Notes under the pieces: model-generated
What the model saw: the letters and a program-made list of their open reading frames with translations, nothing else
Told to the model about the DNA's origin: nothing
Database searches by the model: none
Shown: positions 42,764 through 52,269 of the stretch, in pieces
Position numbering within the stretch: the first letter of the stretch is position 1
Layout: each line of letters begins with the position of its first letter
Position numbers and translations under genes: made by a program
Source of the DNA: Deltaproteobacteria bacterium
GTDB taxonomy: Bacteria; Desulfobacterota; Desulfobulbia; Desulfobulbales; Desulfurivibrionaceae
NCBI GenBank assembly: GCA_013349285.1
Contig: DUZU01000003.1
Location: 1-64,000 of the forward strand
Length of the DNA stretch: 64,000 bases
Reading direction: 5' to 3'

Positions 42764-42898
42764 GGTTACTTAAGCAATAAGTTGATAGGAAGATTCTCCC
42801 GATTTGCAGGGAAATATTCCTCACGTTCAATATTTCACAATAAATTGAGTGTTGAGCTTTATCGACTAATTAAAAGTCAAGCCCGGGTTGGTATTTCC

Positions 42899-44107
42899 AT
42901 GCATAGTACAACTAATCCAAATAAAATAATATTACTTGTCGATGATGATCAATATCAACTTAACTCAATAGAAAGAATTTTCCTGGATAATGATATCGAA
43001 ATTATTAAGGCAACCAATGCAAAAGAAGCTTTTTCGTTAGTTAAACTTAATCAAGTTGATTTGATACTGCTTGATATTATGATGCCTGAAATTGATGGAT
43101 TCCAGGTCTGTCAGGCGCTGAAAATTGACCCCGAGACCGAAGATATACCTATTATATTCCTTACGGCCAAAGATGATGAAGATATAATTGTGAAGGGATT
43201 TGAGCTTGGCGCACAGGATTATGTGATCAAGCCCTTTAATTCACATGAATTGTTGGCTCGGGCAAAAACTCATATTGAACTAAAAGAAAAAAGTGAGGAG
43301 TTGGGAAAAATAACCCAGGTCCTTGAGGAAAGAGTTGCCGAAAGAACAGCACAGCTGGTTGAGGCAAATAACAGGTTGTTGCATTTAGGAAAAGCAAAAA
43401 GCGACTTTATTTCCCTGATTAGCCATGAATTGCGCACTCCACTAAACGCAATGACAATGCTTATTAATTCTTTAAACGATACTGTCCACACAGAAAAGCA
43501 GGCACAGTACGTTAAATATTTACAGAATTCCCTGGATAGACTTGTTCATTTTTCTGATTCGGCAATTTTGATAACATCCCTTACTGCTGATATAGACAGT
43601 GCAATAACTTATGCGCCGATATTAACCAAGAAACTTATTATCGAATGTTTTGAAAAAATAAAAAAAAGATCAGAAAGTAAAGGCATTCAGCTGGTTAGTG
43701 AACTTCAGTCAGATGAGTTACAGATCGTAGGCGATGCATCACTAATCAAAAGATGTCTATTGATTATACTTGAAAATGCAATAACATATTCTCCCCAAAA
43801 TGGTCGTGTCGTTGTCCAAGCCAAATCTGAAGATAACAATTTACTATTGCAGGTTAATGATAGCGGCCCCGGATTTTCACAAGAATCGCTTGACATGTTG
43901 TTTGATTTTTTCACAATAGACGACATTATGCATCATTCCGAAGGACTGGGCTTAGGCCTTGCCGCAGCGAAGTTAATCATGGATGCTCATTTCGGTACAA
44001 TTGAAGTTGAAAATATAAATAATAAAGGCGCTTCCGTGAAACTTTTTTTCCCAAACAAGGTAGGCTCCCAAGAACTGCTTAATTGTATTAATTCAGATCC
44101 GACCTGA
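42899..44107 (+). CDS. Response regulator-histidine kinase (REC-coiled coil-HisKA-HATPase)
   Basis: 'IILLVDDDQYQLNSIERIFL', 'LILLDIMMPEIDGFQVCQAL', 'SLISHELRTPLNAMTMLI', 'EGLGLGLAAAKLI'. Likely start at MHSTTNPN rather than 42782. Confidence 0.88.
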   Translation: MHSTTNPNKIILLVDDDQYQLNSIERIFLDNDIEIIKATNAKEAFSLVKLNQVDLILLDIMMPEIDGFQVCQALKIDPETEDIPIIFLTAKDDEDIIVKGFELGAQDYVIKPFNSHELLARAKTHIELKEKSEELGKITQVLEERVAERTAQLVEANNRLLHLGKAKSDFISLISHELRTPLNAMTMLINSLNDTVHTEKQAQYVKYLQNSLDRLVHFSDSAILITSLTADIDSAITYAPILTKKLIIECFEKIKKRSESKGIQLVSELQSDELQIVGDASLIKRCLLIILENAITYSPQNGRVVVQAKSEDNNLLLQVNDSGPGFSQESLDMLFDFFTIDDIMHHSEGLGLGLAAAKLIMDAHFGTIEVENINNKGASVKLFFPNKVGSQELLNCINSDPT

Positions 44108-44287: not shown

Positions 44288-44446
44288 TTAATCAGCCTTC
44301 CAGAAATCATCTTTCTCTGCCCCGCATTTGGGACAGGCCCAGTCCGCGGCGACATCTTCCCACTTGGTTCCCGGCGCTACGCCGTGCTCATAATCTCCCT
44401 CTTCCGGATCATAGACATAGCCACAGGGGCATTCCCATTTTTCCAT
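44288..44446 (-). CDS. Rubredoxin (52 aa, absent from the ORF track)
   Basis: Manual translation: [56 protein letters not shown]...CPKCG; RBS AGGAGAG upstream. Confidence 0.95.
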
Positions 44447-44485
44447 TGCTCTCTCCTGGTCTGCGGTAAAAATTAAACTTATTGG

Positions 44486-44812
44486 TTAATCCATGTTTTC
44501 CATGACCTTGCCGCAACAGGTGGGCAGCCCCTCACCCTTGGCCACTTTCATGTATTTATTGCAGGTCGCGCAGTAATAGGTGGCATCCGCCGCCGCGGTT
44601 TGTTCAACCCGCTGGGTCACCCCGCCGGCCACCCCTTCGATCACAAAGCGGGCCAGCTTGTTTTTGCCGGGAATAAACTCGCCGATCGGCGACAACCGCT
44701 TGTTATCGTTGAGGCAATCCACCATGATCCGCCACAGGGTTTCAAGATCATGGGTTTCGCCCGGATTTTCAGGCATAACTTCTACAACATTCTTATCGAT
44801 TGTAATTTTCAT
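44486..44812 (-). CDS. Protein with C-terminal desulforedoxin-like metal site
   Basis: C terminus 'YYCATCNKYMKVAKGEGLPTCCGKVMENMD' (CxxC-x14-CC), resembling desulforedoxin; N-terminal about 75 aa not recognised. Confidence 0.75.
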   Translation of the reverse strand: MKITIDKNVVEVMPENPGETHDLETLWRIMVDCLNDNKRLSPIGEFIPGKNKLARFVIEGVAGGVTQRVEQTAAADATYYCATCNKYMKVAKGEGLPTCCGKVMENMD

Positions 44813-45063: not shown

Positions 45064-45105
45064 AAAAAAAAATCCGGCAACTGAAAGTTTCTCAGCTGCC
45101 GGATA
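45064..45105 (-). terminator. Intrinsic terminator after the tandem small-protein genes
   Basis: Minus strand: ATCCGGCAGCTGAGAAACTTTCAGTTGCCGGATTTTTTTTT; GC-rich stem followed by U-tract. Confidence 0.85.
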
Positions 45106-45184: not shown

Positions 45185-45400
45185 TTACATGCCGCTCATA
45201 GCTTGGAACCAACTGGTGACCAGGCCTAAGGGTCCACCGGCGGCAATAATCCCGGAAACAAGGCAGCTTACCGACCAGGCGCCAACCAGGCCGGCGGTCA
45301 TTGCGGCGACCCCAACTACTGTTCCCTGCATGATATCGGTTCCGATTCCGTCTGTTACGATTGCATTTGCGAGTTGTTTTGTTTTAGCGGTATTTTTCAT
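45185..45400 (-). CDS. Small hydrophobic protein, paralog 2 (unknown function)
   Basis: 71 aa MKNTAKTKQLANAIVTDGIGTDIMQGTVVGVAAMTAGLVGAWSVSCLVSGIIAAGGPLGLVTSWFQAMSGM; RBS AAGGGG; shares motifs with the upstream ORF. Confidence 0.8.
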   Translation of the reverse strand: MKNTAKTKQLANAIVTDGIGTDIMQGTVVGVAAMTAGLVGAWSVSCLVSGIIAAGGPLGLVTSWFQAMSGM

Positions 45401-45456
45401 GTTCGGCCCCTTCTTGTTATAAATGTGTGGTTATAAAGTTAGTTGATAAAAATTTG

Positions 45457-45666
45457 TTATACACCGGTAACCGCGGAGATAAAGCCCTTAACCAAGCCCA
45501 GCGGGCCGGCAACGGCGGCGGCGGAAGCAAGACAGGAAATAGCCCAGATACCGATAACCGCGGAAGCTGCACCCATGATTGCTACGCTACCTTTGGTGAG
45601 GGCGTCGATGCCGGCTACGGAGTTAACGGTTTCGTTGGTGGTGGTTTTGGTGGCGGTAGTATTCAT
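45457..45666 (-). CDS. Small hydrophobic protein, paralog 1 (unknown function)
   Basis: 69 aa MNTTATKTTTNETVNSVAGIDALTKGSVAIMGAASAVIGIWAISCLASAAAVAGPLGLVKGFISAVTGV; start chosen after the TGAGG RBS. Confidence 0.8.
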   Translation of the reverse strand: MNTTATKTTTNETVNSVAGIDALTKGSVAIMGAASAVIGIWAISCLASAAAVAGPLGLVKGFISAVTGV

Positions 45667-45736
45667 GGTTGGCCTCATTATTTTTTTTAAGATATTTTTA
45701 TTTAACGATTGTTGTGCTGCTTTGATCTTATGCTAT

Positions 45737-45752
45737 TGCCAAAACCGTGCCA
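45737..45752 (-). promoter_or_regulatory. Sigma54 (RpoN) -24/-12 promoter
   Basis: Minus strand TGGCACGGTTTTGGCA against consensus TGGCACGN4TTGCA; GG/GC spacing intact, one mismatch. Confidence 0.65.
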
Positions 45753-45807
45753 ACATAAAATTATACAATAAAATCAGACAGTTGACCATTTAGATGGTGA
45801 TTGAATT

Positions 45808-45820
45808 TGTCACAGTGACA
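45808..45820. promoter_or_regulatory. Palindrome, candidate enhancer-binding-protein site
   Basis: TGTCACAGTGACA perfect palindrome about 55-70 bp upstream of the -24 element; additional TGTCA half-site at 45829-45833. Confidence 0.45.
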
Positions 45821-45948
45821 CGTTTTTTTGTCATTTTGGCAAAAGGTTATCGGGCCTTTGGGCCCAATCGAGTAATGCAAAGGGGTAAGCCCCTTGCCCG
45901 ATACGCCGCCGTTTTTACCAAGGGGTGGATACGAGGATCTTTACCTGC

Positions 45949-48123
45949 TCAAAATGCCATGCCGATACTGAAATGCACGGCATAGCTTCTTTCGTCCCGC
46001 TCCTCATCCGGCCGGGGATTTAGGGCAAAATCCAGTCTGGCCGGACCAATGGGCAACAGATATTGCAGGCCGAATCCTACTCCGAACCGCATATCCCGGA
46101 AGAAATTCTGGAGGGTTTTATCCACAAGCTCCTGGCGGCCATCAAGCAACAGGGCCGGGATCTCCTCCCGCTCCCGGTTCGGACTGACGTTGCCCATATC
46201 GCAGAAGAGCGATCCGGCAAAATTGCGCCAGATTTTCATCCGCAGCTCCAGGTTGACGGTATTGAAGCCCGTCCCCCCGAGAGGTTCACCGTCTGCATCC
46301 ATAGGGCCCAGCTTGGCCTCGCGAAAACTTCGAATTGAACTCTCGCCGCCGTTGAAAAACCGTTCGCTGATGGGGATGCCGTTCTGCTCCAACACCGGCA
46401 GCAGCAGGCCACAGTTATAGCGGCCGGCCAACACCAGCCGTTCGCTGAGGGCGTGGAAATATCTCACCCCAAAGTTAAGCCGCAAAAAATCAAGGTTTCC
46501 CCCCAGCTTTCGGCCGGCAAACTCCGCAGTCACAAAACTCCGATACCCCTTAGTGGCGAAGAACAGGTCATTTCTGGTATCCCGGGCCACCTGCAGATTG
46601 ATGGACGCCTTATTGTATGACGCTTCCTGCAGGTGCTGGTTTTGTTCGGGATCAATATCGGTGATATCGTTTTGGGAGAACTCATAGCCCCCTTTAAGGG
46701 AGACATTTTTCGGCAGCGGCAGCGAGAGATAAAAAGCGGCCCCGGTATTTTCGATCGTATAAACCGGCTGTTCCCGGTAACGATGATGAAGCGGCATATC
46801 GGCAGTCAGCCGGCGGTTGAGAAACCAGGGATCGGTATAGCCGGTTTCCAGAGAATAGCCCTTGGTGGAAACCGCCCCGTCGACCCGGGCAATTCGGCCC
46901 ATCCCGAAAAGGTTTTGGTTCTTGAAACCGGCCTGCATCCGGAAAAATTCGTAGGAGCCCCAGCCCGGCTCAAGGTAATATTCGCGAGACGGCGCTTCCG
47001 CGACCTCCACCGCAAAGGCCCTGTTTTCTTCGGGCTGATCCGGCAAAAAGTCCATTGCGACTTTAGTAAAAAGCCCGGTCGCATACAGGTCGGAGAAACT
47101 TTCCTCCACCAGATCACTTTGATAAATATCCCCTTGGGCGAAATGCAATCGCCGGTGGATGAACTCATCCCTGGTGCGCTCATTGCCGTAAAAGACAATC
47201 TCCCCGAACCGTACCAGCGGGCCGCGCAAGACGACAACAACCAGGGCCACGGTCGAAGAGGACTCCTCTTTCCTGGTCTCCACCGCAATCCTCACATCCG
47301 GATAACCACGGCTGGTAAAAAATTCGCGGACCTCACTGCTGATAAACAGCTTGCGCCGGGGACCGAAGGATGAGCCGATAAAAGGTCGGGTCGCATCCTG
47401 CAGTTGGGGCAGAACGTCCTCCCCCACCTCCCCGGCAAAGGTTATGGTCCCGATCGAGTAACGGGTTCCTTCACTGACAGTGATCCGCAGTTCCTTGGTC
47501 GCAGGGCTATAGGCATGGGGCGACACCTCCACATCCAGATAGCCCTCTGCCCGATAAAAATTTCTGATCCCCTTTTCCAATGCCTGAAAATCAGAGACCA
47601 CATAGGAAAATTCGCCACCTTTCCGGATAGCCTGCCCGATGCCTTTTTCCAGGCTAAAGAGCTGGTCCGCGGCAAAAGAGCTGTTGCCCTTAAGAAGAAC
47701 CGCCTGCACCAACGACTGTTGCCCCTCGATAATGATAAAGCGAACGATCCCCCCGGCGGCCGGCGGGTCGATGCGATAGCCGACCTGGACCTGGGTAAAC
47801 CCGGCCTGCCGGTATCTGAGCTCCATCTGAAAGGCGGCGTCATCCACCGCGATCCCCTGAAAGCCTTCCTGGCCCAACTCATCCCACTCGATACATGCCC
47901 GCAGCTCTTCCTCGCTGAGAAAGGCATTGCCCTCAAAGACGATCTGATATGGGGCGCCGCCGGTCTTTTCCCGGGCAGGTCCCCGCCAGAAAGGAAGGCC
48001 GGGCAATTCCAGGGCCAGGCCCGCTTGCGCCCCCATCCCGAAAAAAAAGACGCCCAGCAGCAGAAGAACCGCCCCCTCCCTGAATGAAACTCTATTAAAA
48101 TACTTCCAGCCGGATCTTATCAT
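45949..48123 (-). CDS. BamA/TamA-family outer membrane protein (POTRA + beta-barrel)
   Basis: POTRA-like repeats ('FVIIEGQQSLVQAVLLKGNSSF', 'EIVFYGNERTRDEFIHRRL'), barrel motifs 'RFFNGGESSIRSF', C-terminal 'AVHFSIGMAF'. Confidence 0.92.
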   Translation of the reverse strand: MIRSGWKYFNRVSFREGAVLLLLGVFFFGMGAQAGLALELPGLPFWRGPAREKTGGAPYQIVFEGNAFLSEEELRACIEWDELGQEGFQGIAVDDAAFQMELRYRQAGFTQVQVGYRIDPPAAGGIVRFIIIEGQQSLVQAVLLKGNSSFAADQLFSLEKGIGQAIRKGGEFSYVVSDFQALEKGIRNFYRAEGYLDVEVSPHAYSPATKELRITVSEGTRYSIGTITFAGEVGEDVLPQLQDATRPFIGSSFGPRRKLFISSEVREFFTSRGYPDVRIAVETRKEESSSTVALVVVVLRGPLVRFGEIVFYGNERTRDEFIHRRLHFAQGDIYQSDLVEESFSDLYATGLFTKVAMDFLPDQPEENRAFAVEVAEAPSREYYLEPGWGSYEFFRMQAGFKNQNLFGMGRIARVDGAVSTKGYSLETGYTDPWFLNRRLTADMPLHHRYREQPVYTIENTGAAFYLSLPLPKNVSLKGGYEFSQNDITDIDPEQNQHLQEASYNKASINLQVARDTRNDLFFATKGYRSFVTAEFAGRKLGGNLDFLRLNFGVRYFHALSERLVLAGRYNCGLLLPVLEQNGIPISERFFNGGESSIRSFREAKLGPMDADGEPLGGTGFNTVNLELRMKIWRNFAGSLFCDMGNVSPNREREEIPALLLDGRQELVDKTLQNFFRDMRFGVGFGLQYLLPIGPARLDFALNPRPDEERDERSYAVHFSIGMAF

Positions 48124-48138
48124 TGTGGCTACAGCCCC

Positions 48139-51100
48139 TTATTGAAAACGAAAAACCAGCCTTATCCCGGCATTATAATTATCCCAGACATCCCTTTCCG
48201 CGGTCAAAAAAACCTCATCCTGCAAACGCAAAATGTTTTCACCCAGGGTAAACTTTGCCTCAATGGTTTCATCGCCTTTTTTGGTGATGTTTTTGCCGAT
48301 ATCAAGCTGCAGCCTGTCCAAAAAATAATCCTGGGCAGCAAGGTCGTCACTGCCGAACCATTCCCGGAAAACTTCCTTGCCGACATAGACGACCAGGGCT
48401 GACATGTTTGCCGTCCTGTCCTGCCGGCCTGCCCCTCCGCTGGGCGGGCGACCGGTCAGCAGCAGATAAAGCAAATCCTCCCGGGGCAGGGGGGGCATGG
48501 ATGACAGGTTGATGATCGGTTCATCATAGGGCCCCTGCACCATCACCGAAATATCATAGCCGCCGATCCGGGCGCTACCGGTCAGTTCAAGGCGCGGCCG
48601 ATCGGGATAAAGTTCAAGAAAATGGATTATGCCGGAGTTAACAACCAGCTTGCCGGCCGGCAAAAAAATCGTGACCTCATTGACATAAATTTTACCGGTG
48701 ACAATCGGCAGCTCCCCGGTGCCGCCGATTTTTAGTTCTGGCCGGAACCGGCCCTTGAAGAGATTGGAGGTTACCACGATCTCCTCCTTGGCGGTAACGG
48801 CAACATCAAACCCGGTACTGTGCAGCGGTTCGTCCTGAAAGGAAATCATCTCCGGCCGGCCGTCGGCACCCAGCCCCTGCAAACCGGCAAAAAGCGAGGA
48901 CAACAAGCCGATATTCTTTGAAATCTTGGTGTCGGTCAATTCGATTTTGCCGACAATCCGACCCTGACCCGCCGCATAGGAGAGATCCAGGCCGGCATCG
49001 GCCCGAACCTTGATCCCTTCGGCCCGATACAAAAGCAAATCCGATCCGGCCAGAGTCAGGTTGCCGCTGATGGCCCCATCCGGAGTGCGGGCGGCCATGC
49101 CTTGCCCATGCACGGGCGCCCCCCCGACCAGGCCGCGGAACGAATTAAGCTTGAAGGTCTGATTATCAAGCGAGGCGGCAGCTTCTATATTCTTGATGGC
49201 AGGGATATTCATGCTGTGCCGCAAGCCGCCTTCTTTCATGATGAACTCCGCCCGGATCACCGGTTTTTGCGGGGTCCCTCTCACCAAAAATTCTCCGGCC
49301 AGGATCCCGGAGGCCCCCCTGACCTCCGGATATTGCTTGGCAAACCAACCGAGGTCATGCAGGGTAAAGGTGCCGGCCAGATCAAGCTTGCCATCAAGGT
49401 TACGAAGATCCTGCCAGGCCTTGCGGCTAAAAATTTCGCCGGGCAGCGCCCCGTGCGCATCCAGTGACAACAATTCGGAATGAAGAAAAAGCCGTTCCGC
49501 CAGCACCAGATCCTTGGCCAACTGAAAATCCGCATCAATTGACAAGGGCCGCGACGGCAGCCAGGCGGAAAACCCGGCCGGCACCAGATGTTGCGCCTTT
49601 ACTGTTATATGCCCGGCGGGCGCCCGCCACGAACCGTCAAGACTGATCTCCGCCCGGATCGGGCCACTCTCTTGAATGACTCCCGGCACAAGCTGCGCCA
49701 ACACCCAGGGCTCTTCGAGATTTATAGCGGCCCGGAGATTGAGCCCCTCTGCCTCCGGCAAAGAGATGGCGCCATCCTTAAAGGCAACCGGGATATTGCC
49801 CTGCAGGCGAACAAGATCCCTCCCCTTTTGCGAAAAGCTAACCCCGGCAATCTTCAATCGATTTTCGGCATAGGAGAAATCATAGGTGCAGTCCAGGGCA
49901 ATGGCCGCATCCTCCCCGGCCAACCCCCTCACCGCACCGGCGGCCGTAAACGACGGCGAGGTCAGGGGGCCCAAAAAATCGATCCTGGCCTTGGCCTGCT
50001 GAAAATTTACCCTGCGCGGCAAATACTCCGCAATAAGAGCGGCGCCTCCGGGACCGCTGTCCACCTTTATTTTCAGGTCGGCTGCGCCGGTAGACAGCTT
50101 GCCCTGGATGGCAATGGTCAGATCCTTGCCGGCCAAGACCAAATCGTGGTCGACCGCAACTTCATTACCCTGCACCAAAAAACGGGCCGGGCTTTGCAGC
50201 GCCAATAGATGTTTTTTATAGCCAACGGTCAGCTCCTTGACCAAGATAGTGCTTGCCGCGCGCCCCCCCTTCTCGCGCCAGGCCATCCCCCCGGACCCGG
50301 CCAGAGAGTACCCTTGGTCGTGCTTTGCCTGAAAGCTGGTCACCTCCAGGTTGTGCTTGTCGATCTTGGCCTCGACGGCAAACCGTGAAAACCGTTGTCC
50401 ACCCACAAGCAGGTCTTGGCCGGTGGCCCTGAAGGCGGCCCGCACCTCGGCAAGAGGCCCGGCCAGCTCCCCCTCGGCCGCAACCCGGCCCTTAACCGCC
50501 ATTGCCCCGCCCTGGTCCGCCGGCGGCAGATAGCGGGAGATATCCTGCACCGATGCCGTAAAATGGCCCTTCAGCAATTCTTCTTTATTAAGATGATAGA
50601 CCCCCGTTAGATGCAAGTTGTCCGGCCCCTGTTCAGCGGTAAAGCTCTCCAGGTGAATAAGTTGCTCCCGATAGGTTCCCCGAGCCTGATAATGCTGGAC
50701 CGCAACCCCCTGAATCACGCCCTTCTTGCCGACCATCTTGAAATCAACCACCGGAGCCAGCAGGGTGCCGCCATACCGCCCCGAGGCCTCCAGCGGTCCG
50801 GACAAGGAAGGACTGCCTTCAAAAAAGGTCAACCGACTTGCATCCGCAAGAGCAACCGCCCAAAGGCCCTGCAGAGCAGACTGATAATACGCCTCGGCAT
50901 CCAACAAATCGGCGGGCAGCTGATAGGCGACATCGCGCAAAGAGATGGAATTCCCTGCCCCGGCCAGCCGGGCTTTTGTTAAAGCCAGCCGCCCCCCCTG
51001 CTTGAATTCGCCCTGCACCTCAAGCTGATCCAAGGCAAAATGATCGAGAAATCCGGTGACCGCCATCGGCAGAACGTTGAAATAGGGACGCAAGGATGAA

Positions 51101-52269
51101 GCATGGAGAGATAGCTCTCCCCGGCTGTGCCGAAGCTGGTCGGCAGGGGTGCCCTCCATTATTTTTTGCAAAGAGATGGCGCAATTAGAGAGTTGCAGGT
51201 TCAGATCCTTATTGACCAGGGCCAACTGTTTGATCATAAGCGTAGTGCCGTCGGCCCTTGCTGCAAAACGCGCCGAGTCAAGGGGCAGATCAAAGATGAC
51301 GCCATGATCAATGGCCAGCTCGAGATTACCGGCAATAGCCAACCCCTGTTCAGCAAAAGAGAGTTTCAGGTTGCCCTGAGCCCGGAGATTGCCCTTGGGG
51401 GAGCCGACCGGTTGCCCGACGCCCAAGGGCATTAACTCCGGCGCAAACTTTTCGCTGTTAAAGGCCAATTCAAGCTCTGAATCCGCCATGGCGCCCGAGA
51501 TCTGCAGCTTCTGCTCGAACCAGGTAATCAGCGCCTCGCCTTTAAGCCGGCCCGGCTCTACCTCGGCAAGGGTGACGCGCCGCGCCACCTCCCGATTGCC
51601 GCAACGAAGAGAGGTCAACTCCAGCCGCTGCCGGCCATATAAAAATTCGCCGGCCAACTGCCGGAATTTTTGTTGTTGGCCGCCAACACCAACCTGTACT
51701 TCTTCGAGTTGAACCGCTGCCCGCAGCTTATTTTCAGCATGAGGAGCAAAAGATGCCGTCTGGATCGCCAACCCCTTAAGCAGGGCCGTGGCCTTACCCT
51801 GCCGGATCTGGAGCAGACCATCACTGAGGATAACCTCCGGCAAGGGCACCGAGATGACCGGCAAAGCCGGCACCTTCCCCGGCCCGGCAGCTTGCCGGGC
51901 AGCAACGAGGAAGATTGCACAGGAGGGATGATCGAGCTCGAGCTTGACTTGCTCAACAAAGGGACGCCAGCCCTTTGTCAAAAGAGCGGGCTGCAAAGAG
52001 GATCTGACCGTCGGCAGCGTGGCCTGCAGGCGGCCGCCATCGTCAAATCGGTAGTCAGCAGTCAGGTTGGTCAGGGTTATTGAGGTCAGCGAAACGAGGG
52101 CGACCGACTGAACGTTTAGAACAAGCCCGGGCAGGGCTTCATGCAATTTCGGGAAAAGATACCTTTGGCAGGCAAAGGTCAGCAATGGCCCCCGAAAGAA
52201 GCCGGCAAGCAGCAGTACACCCAAAAAACAGGTTGCGACCGATGTAAATATGACCTTCTTTTTTTTCAT
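48139..52269 (-). CDS. TamB-like translocation/assembly protein (AsmA/DUF490 superfamily)
   Basis: 1376 aa, N-terminal TM, beta-rich body, C terminus 'LELTGSARIGGYDISVMVQGPYDEPIINLSSMPPLPREDLLYLLLTGRPP'. Confidence 0.9.
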   Translation of the reverse strand: MKKKKVIFTSVATCFLGVLLLAGFFRGPLLTFACQRYLFPKLHEALPGLVLNVQSVALVSLTSITLTNLTADYRFDDGGRLQATLPTVRSSLQPALLTKGWRPFVEQVKLELDHPSCAIFLVAARQAAGPGKVPALPVISVPLPEVILSDGLLQIRQGKATALLKGLAIQTASFAPHAENKLRAAVQLEEVQVGVGGQQQKFRQLAGEFLYGRQRLELTSLRCGNREVARRVTLAEVEPGRLKGEALITWFEQKLQISGAMADSELELAFNSEKFAPELMPLGVGQPVGSPKGNLRAQGNLKLSFAEQGLAIAGNLELAIDHGVIFDLPLDSARFAARADGTTLMIKQLALVNKDLNLQLSNCAISLQKIMEGTPADQLRHSRGELSLHASSLRPYFNVLPMAVTGFLDHFALDQLEVQGEFKQGGRLALTKARLAGAGNSISLRDVAYQLPADLLDAEAYYQSALQGLWAVALADASRLTFFEGSPSLSGPLEASGRYGGTLLAPVVDFKMVGKKGVIQGVAVQHYQARGTYREQLIHLESFTAEQGPDNLHLTGVYHLNKEELLKGHFTASVQDISRYLPPADQGGAMAVKGRVAAEGELAGPLAEVRAAFRATGQDLLVGGQRFSRFAVEAKIDKHNLEVTSFQAKHDQGYSLAGSGGMAWREKGGRAASTILVKELTVGYKKHLLALQSPARFLVQGNEVAVDHDLVLAGKDLTIAIQGKLSTGAADLKIKVDSGPGGAALIAEYLPRRVNFQQAKARIDFLGPLTSPSFTAAGAVRGLAGEDAAIALDCTYDFSYAENRLKIAGVSFSQKGRDLVRLQGNIPVAFKDGAISLPEAEGLNLRAAINLEEPWVLAQLVPGVIQESGPIRAEISLDGSWRAPAGHITVKAQHLVPAGFSAWLPSRPLSIDADFQLAKDLVLAERLFLHSELLSLDAHGALPGEIFSRKAWQDLRNLDGKLDLAGTFTLHDLGWFAKQYPEVRGASGILAGEFLVRGTPQKPVIRAEFIMKEGGLRHSMNIPAIKNIEAAASLDNQTFKLNSFRGLVGGAPVHGQGMAARTPDGAISGNLTLAGSDLLLYRAEGIKVRADAGLDLSYAAGQGRIVGKIELTDTKISKNIGLLSSLFAGLQGLGADGRPEMISFQDEPLHSTGFDVAVTAKEEIVVTSNLFKGRFRPELKIGGTGELPIVTGKIYVNEVTIFLPAGKLVVNSGIIHFLELYPDRPRLELTGSARIGGYDISVMVQGPYDEPIINLSSMPPLPREDLLYLLLTGRPPSGGAGRQDRTANMSALVVYVGKEVFREWFGSDDLAAQDYFLDRLQLDIGKNITKKGDETIEAKFTLGENILRLQDEVFLTAERDVWDNYNAGIRLVFRFQ

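Follow-up and report, generated by a model that had tools for sequence, protein, structure and literature searches.

Two adjacent small genes in the window, i.e., the whole 64,000-nucleotide stretch of DNA analysed here, encode members of a previously unannotated family of small proteins, referred to as FAM in this study, and most probably form an operon which, together with two others, belongs to a dedicated sigma-54 regulon. The assignment of the FAM operons to such a regulon, deduced from promoter and enhancer sequences, is well supported and represents the best-supported statement of the analysis. The co-occurrence of FAM with a special clade of FtsH proteases and with quinol-linked redox genes is likewise well supported; taken jointly, the regulon and the FtsH/redox module are considered highly probable. 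The family, its promoter and enhancer, the content of the regulon and the genetic association with the FtsH clade and with NapC/NrfD redox genes are directly legible in the genomes compared, and the FAM–FtsH context suggests a membrane-stress or redox response that has not been described so far. With moderate confidence, FAM proteins are proposed to be small inner-membrane effectors with a cytosolic N terminus (N-in) that belong to a sigma-54-controlled membrane-stress/redox regulon and partner a dedicated FtsH.

The gene pair and its protein family

The original prediction described two adjacent paralogous minus-strand genes of 69 and 71 aa with good ribosome-binding sites and their own terminator, encoding membrane proteins of no recognised family, and these statements were confirmed. 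The locus comprises the following features:

45457..45666, minus strand: FAM gene A, encoding a small hydrophobic protein of 69 aa with a single transmembrane (TM) segment; open reading frame (ORF) with ribosome-binding site (RBS)
45185..45400, minus strand: FAM gene B, encoding a paralogue of A of 71 aa; ORF with RBS
45734..45753, minus strand: sigma-54 (-24/-12) promoter TTGGCACGGTTTTGGCAATA, upstream of gene A
45808..45841, no strand assigned: enhancer (upstream activating sequence) consisting of two dyads TGNCA-N3-TGNCA, 8 bp apart, with a 21 bp repeat; candidate site for an NtrC-type activator
45072..45104, minus strand: intrinsic terminator of the A-B operon, with a 15-pair stem, a loop of 3 and a T-run

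Gene A is preceded by the RBS-like sequence GAGG (45676-45673) and gene B by the purine-rich, RBS-like AGAAGGGG (45414-45407); A and B are 35% identical. For gene A and its copy on contig 18 (C18), a dN of 0.08 and a dS of 0.42 were obtained, and gene B, compared with the copies on C16, C18 and C9, gave values of 0.19-0.26 and 0.87-1.70, respectively. Within-genome paralogue comparisons of the A and B types ranged overall from 0.08 to 0.27 (dN) and from 0.42 to 1.70 (dS), with changes biased to the third codon position. Since dN is well below dS and the changes show this bias, A and B are proteins under purifying selection. Three antisense ORFs over the pair (87, 87 and 116 aa) were set aside, codon-position bias favouring the minus-strand frames. 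The only match to Rfam, an L19 leader on the opposite strand of a neighbouring gene, remained below the gathering score.

As deduced from reading of the ORFs, a BamA/TamA-like outer-membrane protein and a TamB-like protein are encoded directly upstream of the pair on the same strand (45949-52269), and small rubredoxin-like and desulfoferrodoxin-like genes are located downstream of it (44288-44812). Rubredoxin and desulfoferrodoxin genes are typical oxygen-defence genes of anaerobes. Further downstream, at a distance of approximately 1 kb from the pair, the opposite strand encodes a receiver domain fused to a histidine kinase (42782-44107).

The host genome is a 2.68-Mb draft (89% complete), in which the pair resides on contig 3 (C3). 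In total, it harbours eight FAM genes in four clusters, namely the C3 pair, a pair on C18, a triplet on C16 and a single gene on C9, and a ninth, divergent copy was detected on C26. Recurrence in relatives, suggested previously as a check, was observed: FAM was found in 41 out of 58 near relatives, with up to 11 copies per genome (Desulfobulbales), and in 20 out of 395 genomes of a phylum-wide sample, including families outside the order, where the sampled genomes are related metagenome-assembled genomes (MAGs), so that the counts are not independent and are inflated by relatedness and MAG sampling. When 85,462 species were scanned for the pattern, 44 FAM loci were recovered, whose records are delta-proteobacterial, Desulfobulbaceae-like, Thermodesulfobacteriota or taxonomically unresolved proteobacterial/bacterial MAGs, in addition to the isolate Desulfogranum marinum. 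A FAM frame is also present in a MAG labelled Desulfurivibrio sp. S2_56, belonging to the same family as the host genome. Profile searches of Pfam, NCBIfam and the PDB yielded no convincing match for FAM, and the check for a strong match to a characterised family accordingly returned none. Judged from these searches, FAM is an unnamed family confined, among the genomes scanned, to one bacterial phylum, Desulfobacterota.

The W-x2-SCL-xS...GPLGLV signature proposed for the pair does recur, but in the more general form G-x-W-[AS]-x-[AS]-C-[LF] ... G-P-[LI] ... [WYF]-x2-A-x2-G, as derived from 43 diverse members. Among these, G-x-W shows no variation at G and W, and all of them have the C-terminal GP...A..G block. 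The single Cys, originally considered invariant, is conserved in at least 90% of them, but is missing from, e.g., one member each at loci L081 and L086. The N-terminal tail has a mean length of 25 residues and contains 3.7 Lys and Arg residues compared with 1.0 in the C-terminal part (77 members), the N-terminal part being the richer one in 71 of the 77 members. This excess suggests an N-in topology in the inner membrane. An AlphaFold model of protein B, obtained with low confidence (pLDDT 64), features a helix from residue 11 to 53, a break at GGP and a second helix from 57 to 69; a Foldseek search of this model against the PDB gave no match. A FAM protein would accordingly be composed of a basic cytosolic tail of approximately 25 residues, one TM helix carrying G-x-W-x2-(S/A)-C-L and a short C-terminal helix past the GGP break.

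Sigma-54 promoter and enhancer of the FAM operons

The classification of the pair as an isolated transcription unit proved to be correct locally; however, the sigma-54 promoter, the enhancer upstream of it and the sister operons on other contigs had been missed. The promoter TTGGCACGGTTTTGGCAATA (45753-45734) achieved a score of 16.4 (maximum 20.2), a value reached by none of 20 shuffled sequences. Within 72 upstream regions of the family, 43% scored above the 95th percentile of shuffles, as opposed to 5.6% on the opposite strand, the scoring matrix being a generic sigma-54 consensus rather than one fitted to this clade. Exact matches to the promoter pattern were found in the whole host genome only upstream of three FAM operons (C3, C16 and C18). 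Sigma-70 consensus matches also exist upstream of the pair; the conserved feature is the sigma-54 element with the enhancer.

The enhancer, TGCCAAAATGACA-N8-TGTCACTGTGACA (45841-45808), is located about 55 bp further upstream than the promoter and is conserved in the C16 and C18 operons. Its pattern, TGNCA-N3-TGNCA-N8-TGNCA-N3-TGNCA, occurs at three exact sites in the host genome, each upstream of a FAM cluster, and a search allowing two mismatches added just one further site, with two mismatches. Across 116 genomes of the order, 34 exact sites were detected in 16 genomes, compared with none for the reversed-pattern control. Each of the 34 sites was checked: 31 directly precede FAM, a further one is unrelated, and the remaining two are located at contig ends, one of them with its sigma-54 element retained. 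Outside the order, too, the pattern marks FAM (L125 and L126), and all 35 deduplicated enhancer-bearing FAM clusters additionally possess a sigma-54-like element. This DNA signature retrieves the regulon from different genomes and yields very few false positives. The analysis provides a previously unannotated small-protein family with a concrete regulatory and genetic context.

In the C16 operon, the FAM triplet is followed by genes for a HAMP sensor kinase with two TM segments, for an NtrC activator (L091:5859-7208) and for an AAA/M41 protease of 870 aa. Because it is encoded in this operon behind the FAM genes, the C16 activator is the natural candidate for the enhancer, and we infer that it acts there. 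A paired-dyad enhancer upstream of a -24/-12 promoter and an NtrC/kinase pair within the regulon correspond to what is expected of an NtrC-type sigma-54 regulon. In the proposed mechanism, a disturbance of the inner membrane or of respiratory electron flow would be perceived by the membrane sensor kinase, whereupon binding of the NtrC-type activator to the double-palindrome enhancer would turn on the FAM genes.

FAM singletons located behind an endonuclease III-like gene were found to lack a sigma-54 promoter and possibly represent a differently regulated subgroup, perhaps with another role. These singletons, which also lie behind a gene for a small membrane protein of 110 aa without a Pfam match, comprise the host's own C9 copy (L093:5652-5927) and loci L057, L066, L068, L070, L071, L075, L077, L078 and L084.

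Neighbouring genes and the FAM-linked FtsH clade

Clustering of flanking proteins and Pfam scans revealed recurrent genes for a kinase, an NtrC activator, FtsH, a NapC-type cytochrome, an FeS protein and NrfD. When regions of up to 20 kb were mapped, genes were found across the phylum in the order kinase - NtrC - FAM (one to six copies) - FtsH - NapC or FeS/NrfD, and the FAM–FtsH order was seen outside the Desulfobulbales as well (L123-L126). The host's own C26 contig shows a response regulator, the divergent FAM copy, FtsH and a NapC-type cytochrome in succession. An M41 protease gene was located within 5 kb of FAM in 29 out of 64 clusters having at least 4 kb of flank on both sides, the expectation being approximately 1%, as calculated from an M41 gene density of approximately one in 0.95 Mb (62 genes, 18 genomes). 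A NapC-type cytochrome or NrfD was encoded within 8-10 kb of FAM in 29 of the 64 clusters, too. Furthermore, genomes with FAM contained on average 3.9 M41 genes (n=33) versus 1.3 in genomes without FAM (n=19; means computed by hand). Such genetic linkage and co-occurrence are what would be expected of a modulator of FtsH.

In a tree of 71 sequences, a branch with 99/99 support separated FAM-linked FtsHs from housekeeping FtsHs. Of three initially unlabelled entries in the FAM-linked clade, one has FAM upstream and two do not; these two FAM-less FtsH operons, from two genomes, contain the same redox genes. HEXXH and Walker A motifs are kept in all 48 FAM-linked proteases, and no housekeeping-type FtsH was found in the 89% complete host genome. 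No FtsH gene is located near the window pair or near several FAM singletons. For the window pair, which has no adjacent protease, any partnership with FtsH would therefore have to act in trans. Given these loci and the subgroup devoid of a sigma-54 promoter, FtsH partnership is not obligatory for every FAM.

Two M41 proteins, namely the 870-aa protein of the C16 operon (L091:3089-5701, G000:C16) and an 837-aa protein (L140:9937-12387), combine an AAA_2 domain at the N terminus with an FtsH-like AAA domain and an HEAGH-containing M41 domain, and none of their hydrophobic segments is long enough to form a TM helix. Apparently, they represent a soluble double-AAA M41 protease. Similar low-scoring M41 matches in frames of 776-878 aa were noticed in about ten relatives, two cases being located beside FAM.

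Possible roles of FAM and comparison with known systems

The biochemical role of FAM, as we infer it from gene context, would be exerted together with the dedicated FtsH paralogue. FAM proteins would most likely act as its small partners in the membrane, i.e., modulators, adaptors or short-lived substrates, and shape the set of membrane or redox proteins handled by FtsH. In E. coli, membrane substrates of FtsH usually need an extended cytosolic region, and polar intramembrane residues are recognised too (PMC13039401). The FAM tail is of suitable length, so that substrate, adaptor and modulator roles are all possible. For a direct functional partnership between FAM and FtsH, the arguments are close to evenly balanced and lean slightly to the side of doubt. 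More tentatively still, FAM may represent a new class of small TM partners of a specialised FtsH clade, both being governed by a sigma-54 two-component system of their own. Desulfobacterota would then possess an inducible, self-contained response of membrane proteolysis, and the targets of the protease in respiratory membranes would depend on how many FAM partners are present and of which type. As a secondary role, FAM proteins may pack into the membrane and stabilise it. The membrane-active or structural function suggested in the original prediction may still apply, reframed within a regulated, FtsH-linked membrane response.

Small proteins known to modulate FtsH-dependent degradation are MgtR, MgtS, SpoVM and lambda CIII. 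Like FAM, they are tiny and membrane-associated and tied to the degradation of membrane proteins, as described, e.g., for MgtR (PMC6813294). Unlike FAM, they are single, mostly shorter and not encoded beside an FtsH of their own, the likeness lying in size and in the tie to membrane-protein degradation.

The main rival to a partnership with FtsH is that FAM proteins protect or silence the membrane, a role put forward for YohP of E. coli and for the small Psp proteins; they would be abundant under stress and alter packing, fluidity or proton leak, and FtsH would be co-regulated merely to remove excess FAM along with membrane proteins that have suffered damage. The many tandem copies found in single genomes, independent operons without a protease and a Gly/Ala/Ser-rich helix of low overall charge are consistent with such a function, and E. 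coli YohP, a stress-induced small membrane protein lowering fluidity and membrane potential, provides a precedent (PMC12719787). YohP resembles FAM in having no detectable catalytic activity, but comprises 27 aa, whereas FAM proteins are about 70 aa long, occur in tandem copies and are linked to FtsH and sigma-54. Sigma-54 control is also a feature of the Psp response of enterobacteria, which is a sigma-54-dependent operon of small inner-membrane proteins responding to inner-membrane damage (PMC5596341). As in Psp, a sigma-54 promoter drives an operon of small membrane proteins; however, where Psp relies on PspF-PspA control, the FAM regulon contains a two-component kinase/NtrC pair, and the FAM module includes a dedicated FtsH clade and redox genes. 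FAM showed no Pfam match to PspA, PspB or PspC, no such homologues were found among the recurrent neighbours (kinase, NtrC, FtsH, cytochromes, FeS and NrfD), and neither a sequence relation to Psp nor a family-level match to other known small proteins was detected. Membrane protection alone would leave the dedicated FtsH clade tracking FAM unexplained, and is regarded as rather unlikely.

That FAM proteins serve as small accessory subunits of the neighbouring quinol-cytochrome complexes, whether NapC-type multiheme or FeS/NrfD, much like CydX and further small subunits of respiratory enzymes, is improbable. FAM follows NrfD directly at several loci (L050, L056, L058 and L124), but the redox genes accompany only the 29 of 64 clusters mentioned above, no such complex is encoded near the window pair, the C18 pair or the C16 triplet, FAM copy numbers are high, and the protease is the commoner immediate neighbour. 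That FAM is a bacteriocin, RiPP precursor or holin-like toxin, as had partly been suggested and as its small, Gly/Ala-rich and hydrophobic character might indicate, is very improbable, given that no maturase or other modification gene, leader peptidase, exporter or immunity gene recurs beside the family, that it is conserved in one phylum with a dedicated regulon, and that the best RiPP match, TigB (E=0.34), reached 11 bits against a curated cut-off of 70, no RiPP family being found among 43 members.

A comparable system in a sulfate reducer is DVU3303-DVU3305 of D. vulgaris, a three-component general-stress system (Rajeev et al. 2011, PMC3333781), in which a sensor kinase, a response regulator and an ATP-dependent protease are likewise tied to membrane and hypothetical genes. 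In contrast to the FAM module, its protease is a Lon-domain response regulator and its targets include UspA-type proteins; FAM-like proteins or FtsH are not described in the sections of that paper considered here. A search of literature on FtsH in connection with sigma-54, NapC, small membrane proteins or Desulfobulbaceae, with most subscription journals outside its range, retrieved no description of the system. The dedicated FtsH clade with its candidate membrane partners bears on how FtsH selects membrane substrates and on what stress-induced small membrane proteins do.

Since related cassettes are present in the named isolate Desulfogranum marinum DSM 2058 (locus L085), the idea is testable. 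In several genomes, FAM is followed by a second protein of about 100 aa, designated FAM2; its first hydrophobic segment bears a weak similarity to FAM, and a second such segment is present as well. D. marinum possesses three FAM-FAM2 cassettes in tandem (L085:4630-7857), each with its own sigma-54-like element, behind genes for FeS, NrfD and kinase-like proteins. Finally, FAM variants without the polar N-terminal tail and with a charged C-terminal tail were found at loci L052, L063, L064 and L079, where they adjoin a Zn_peptidase (PF04228) gene and genes resembling those of envelope biogenesis.
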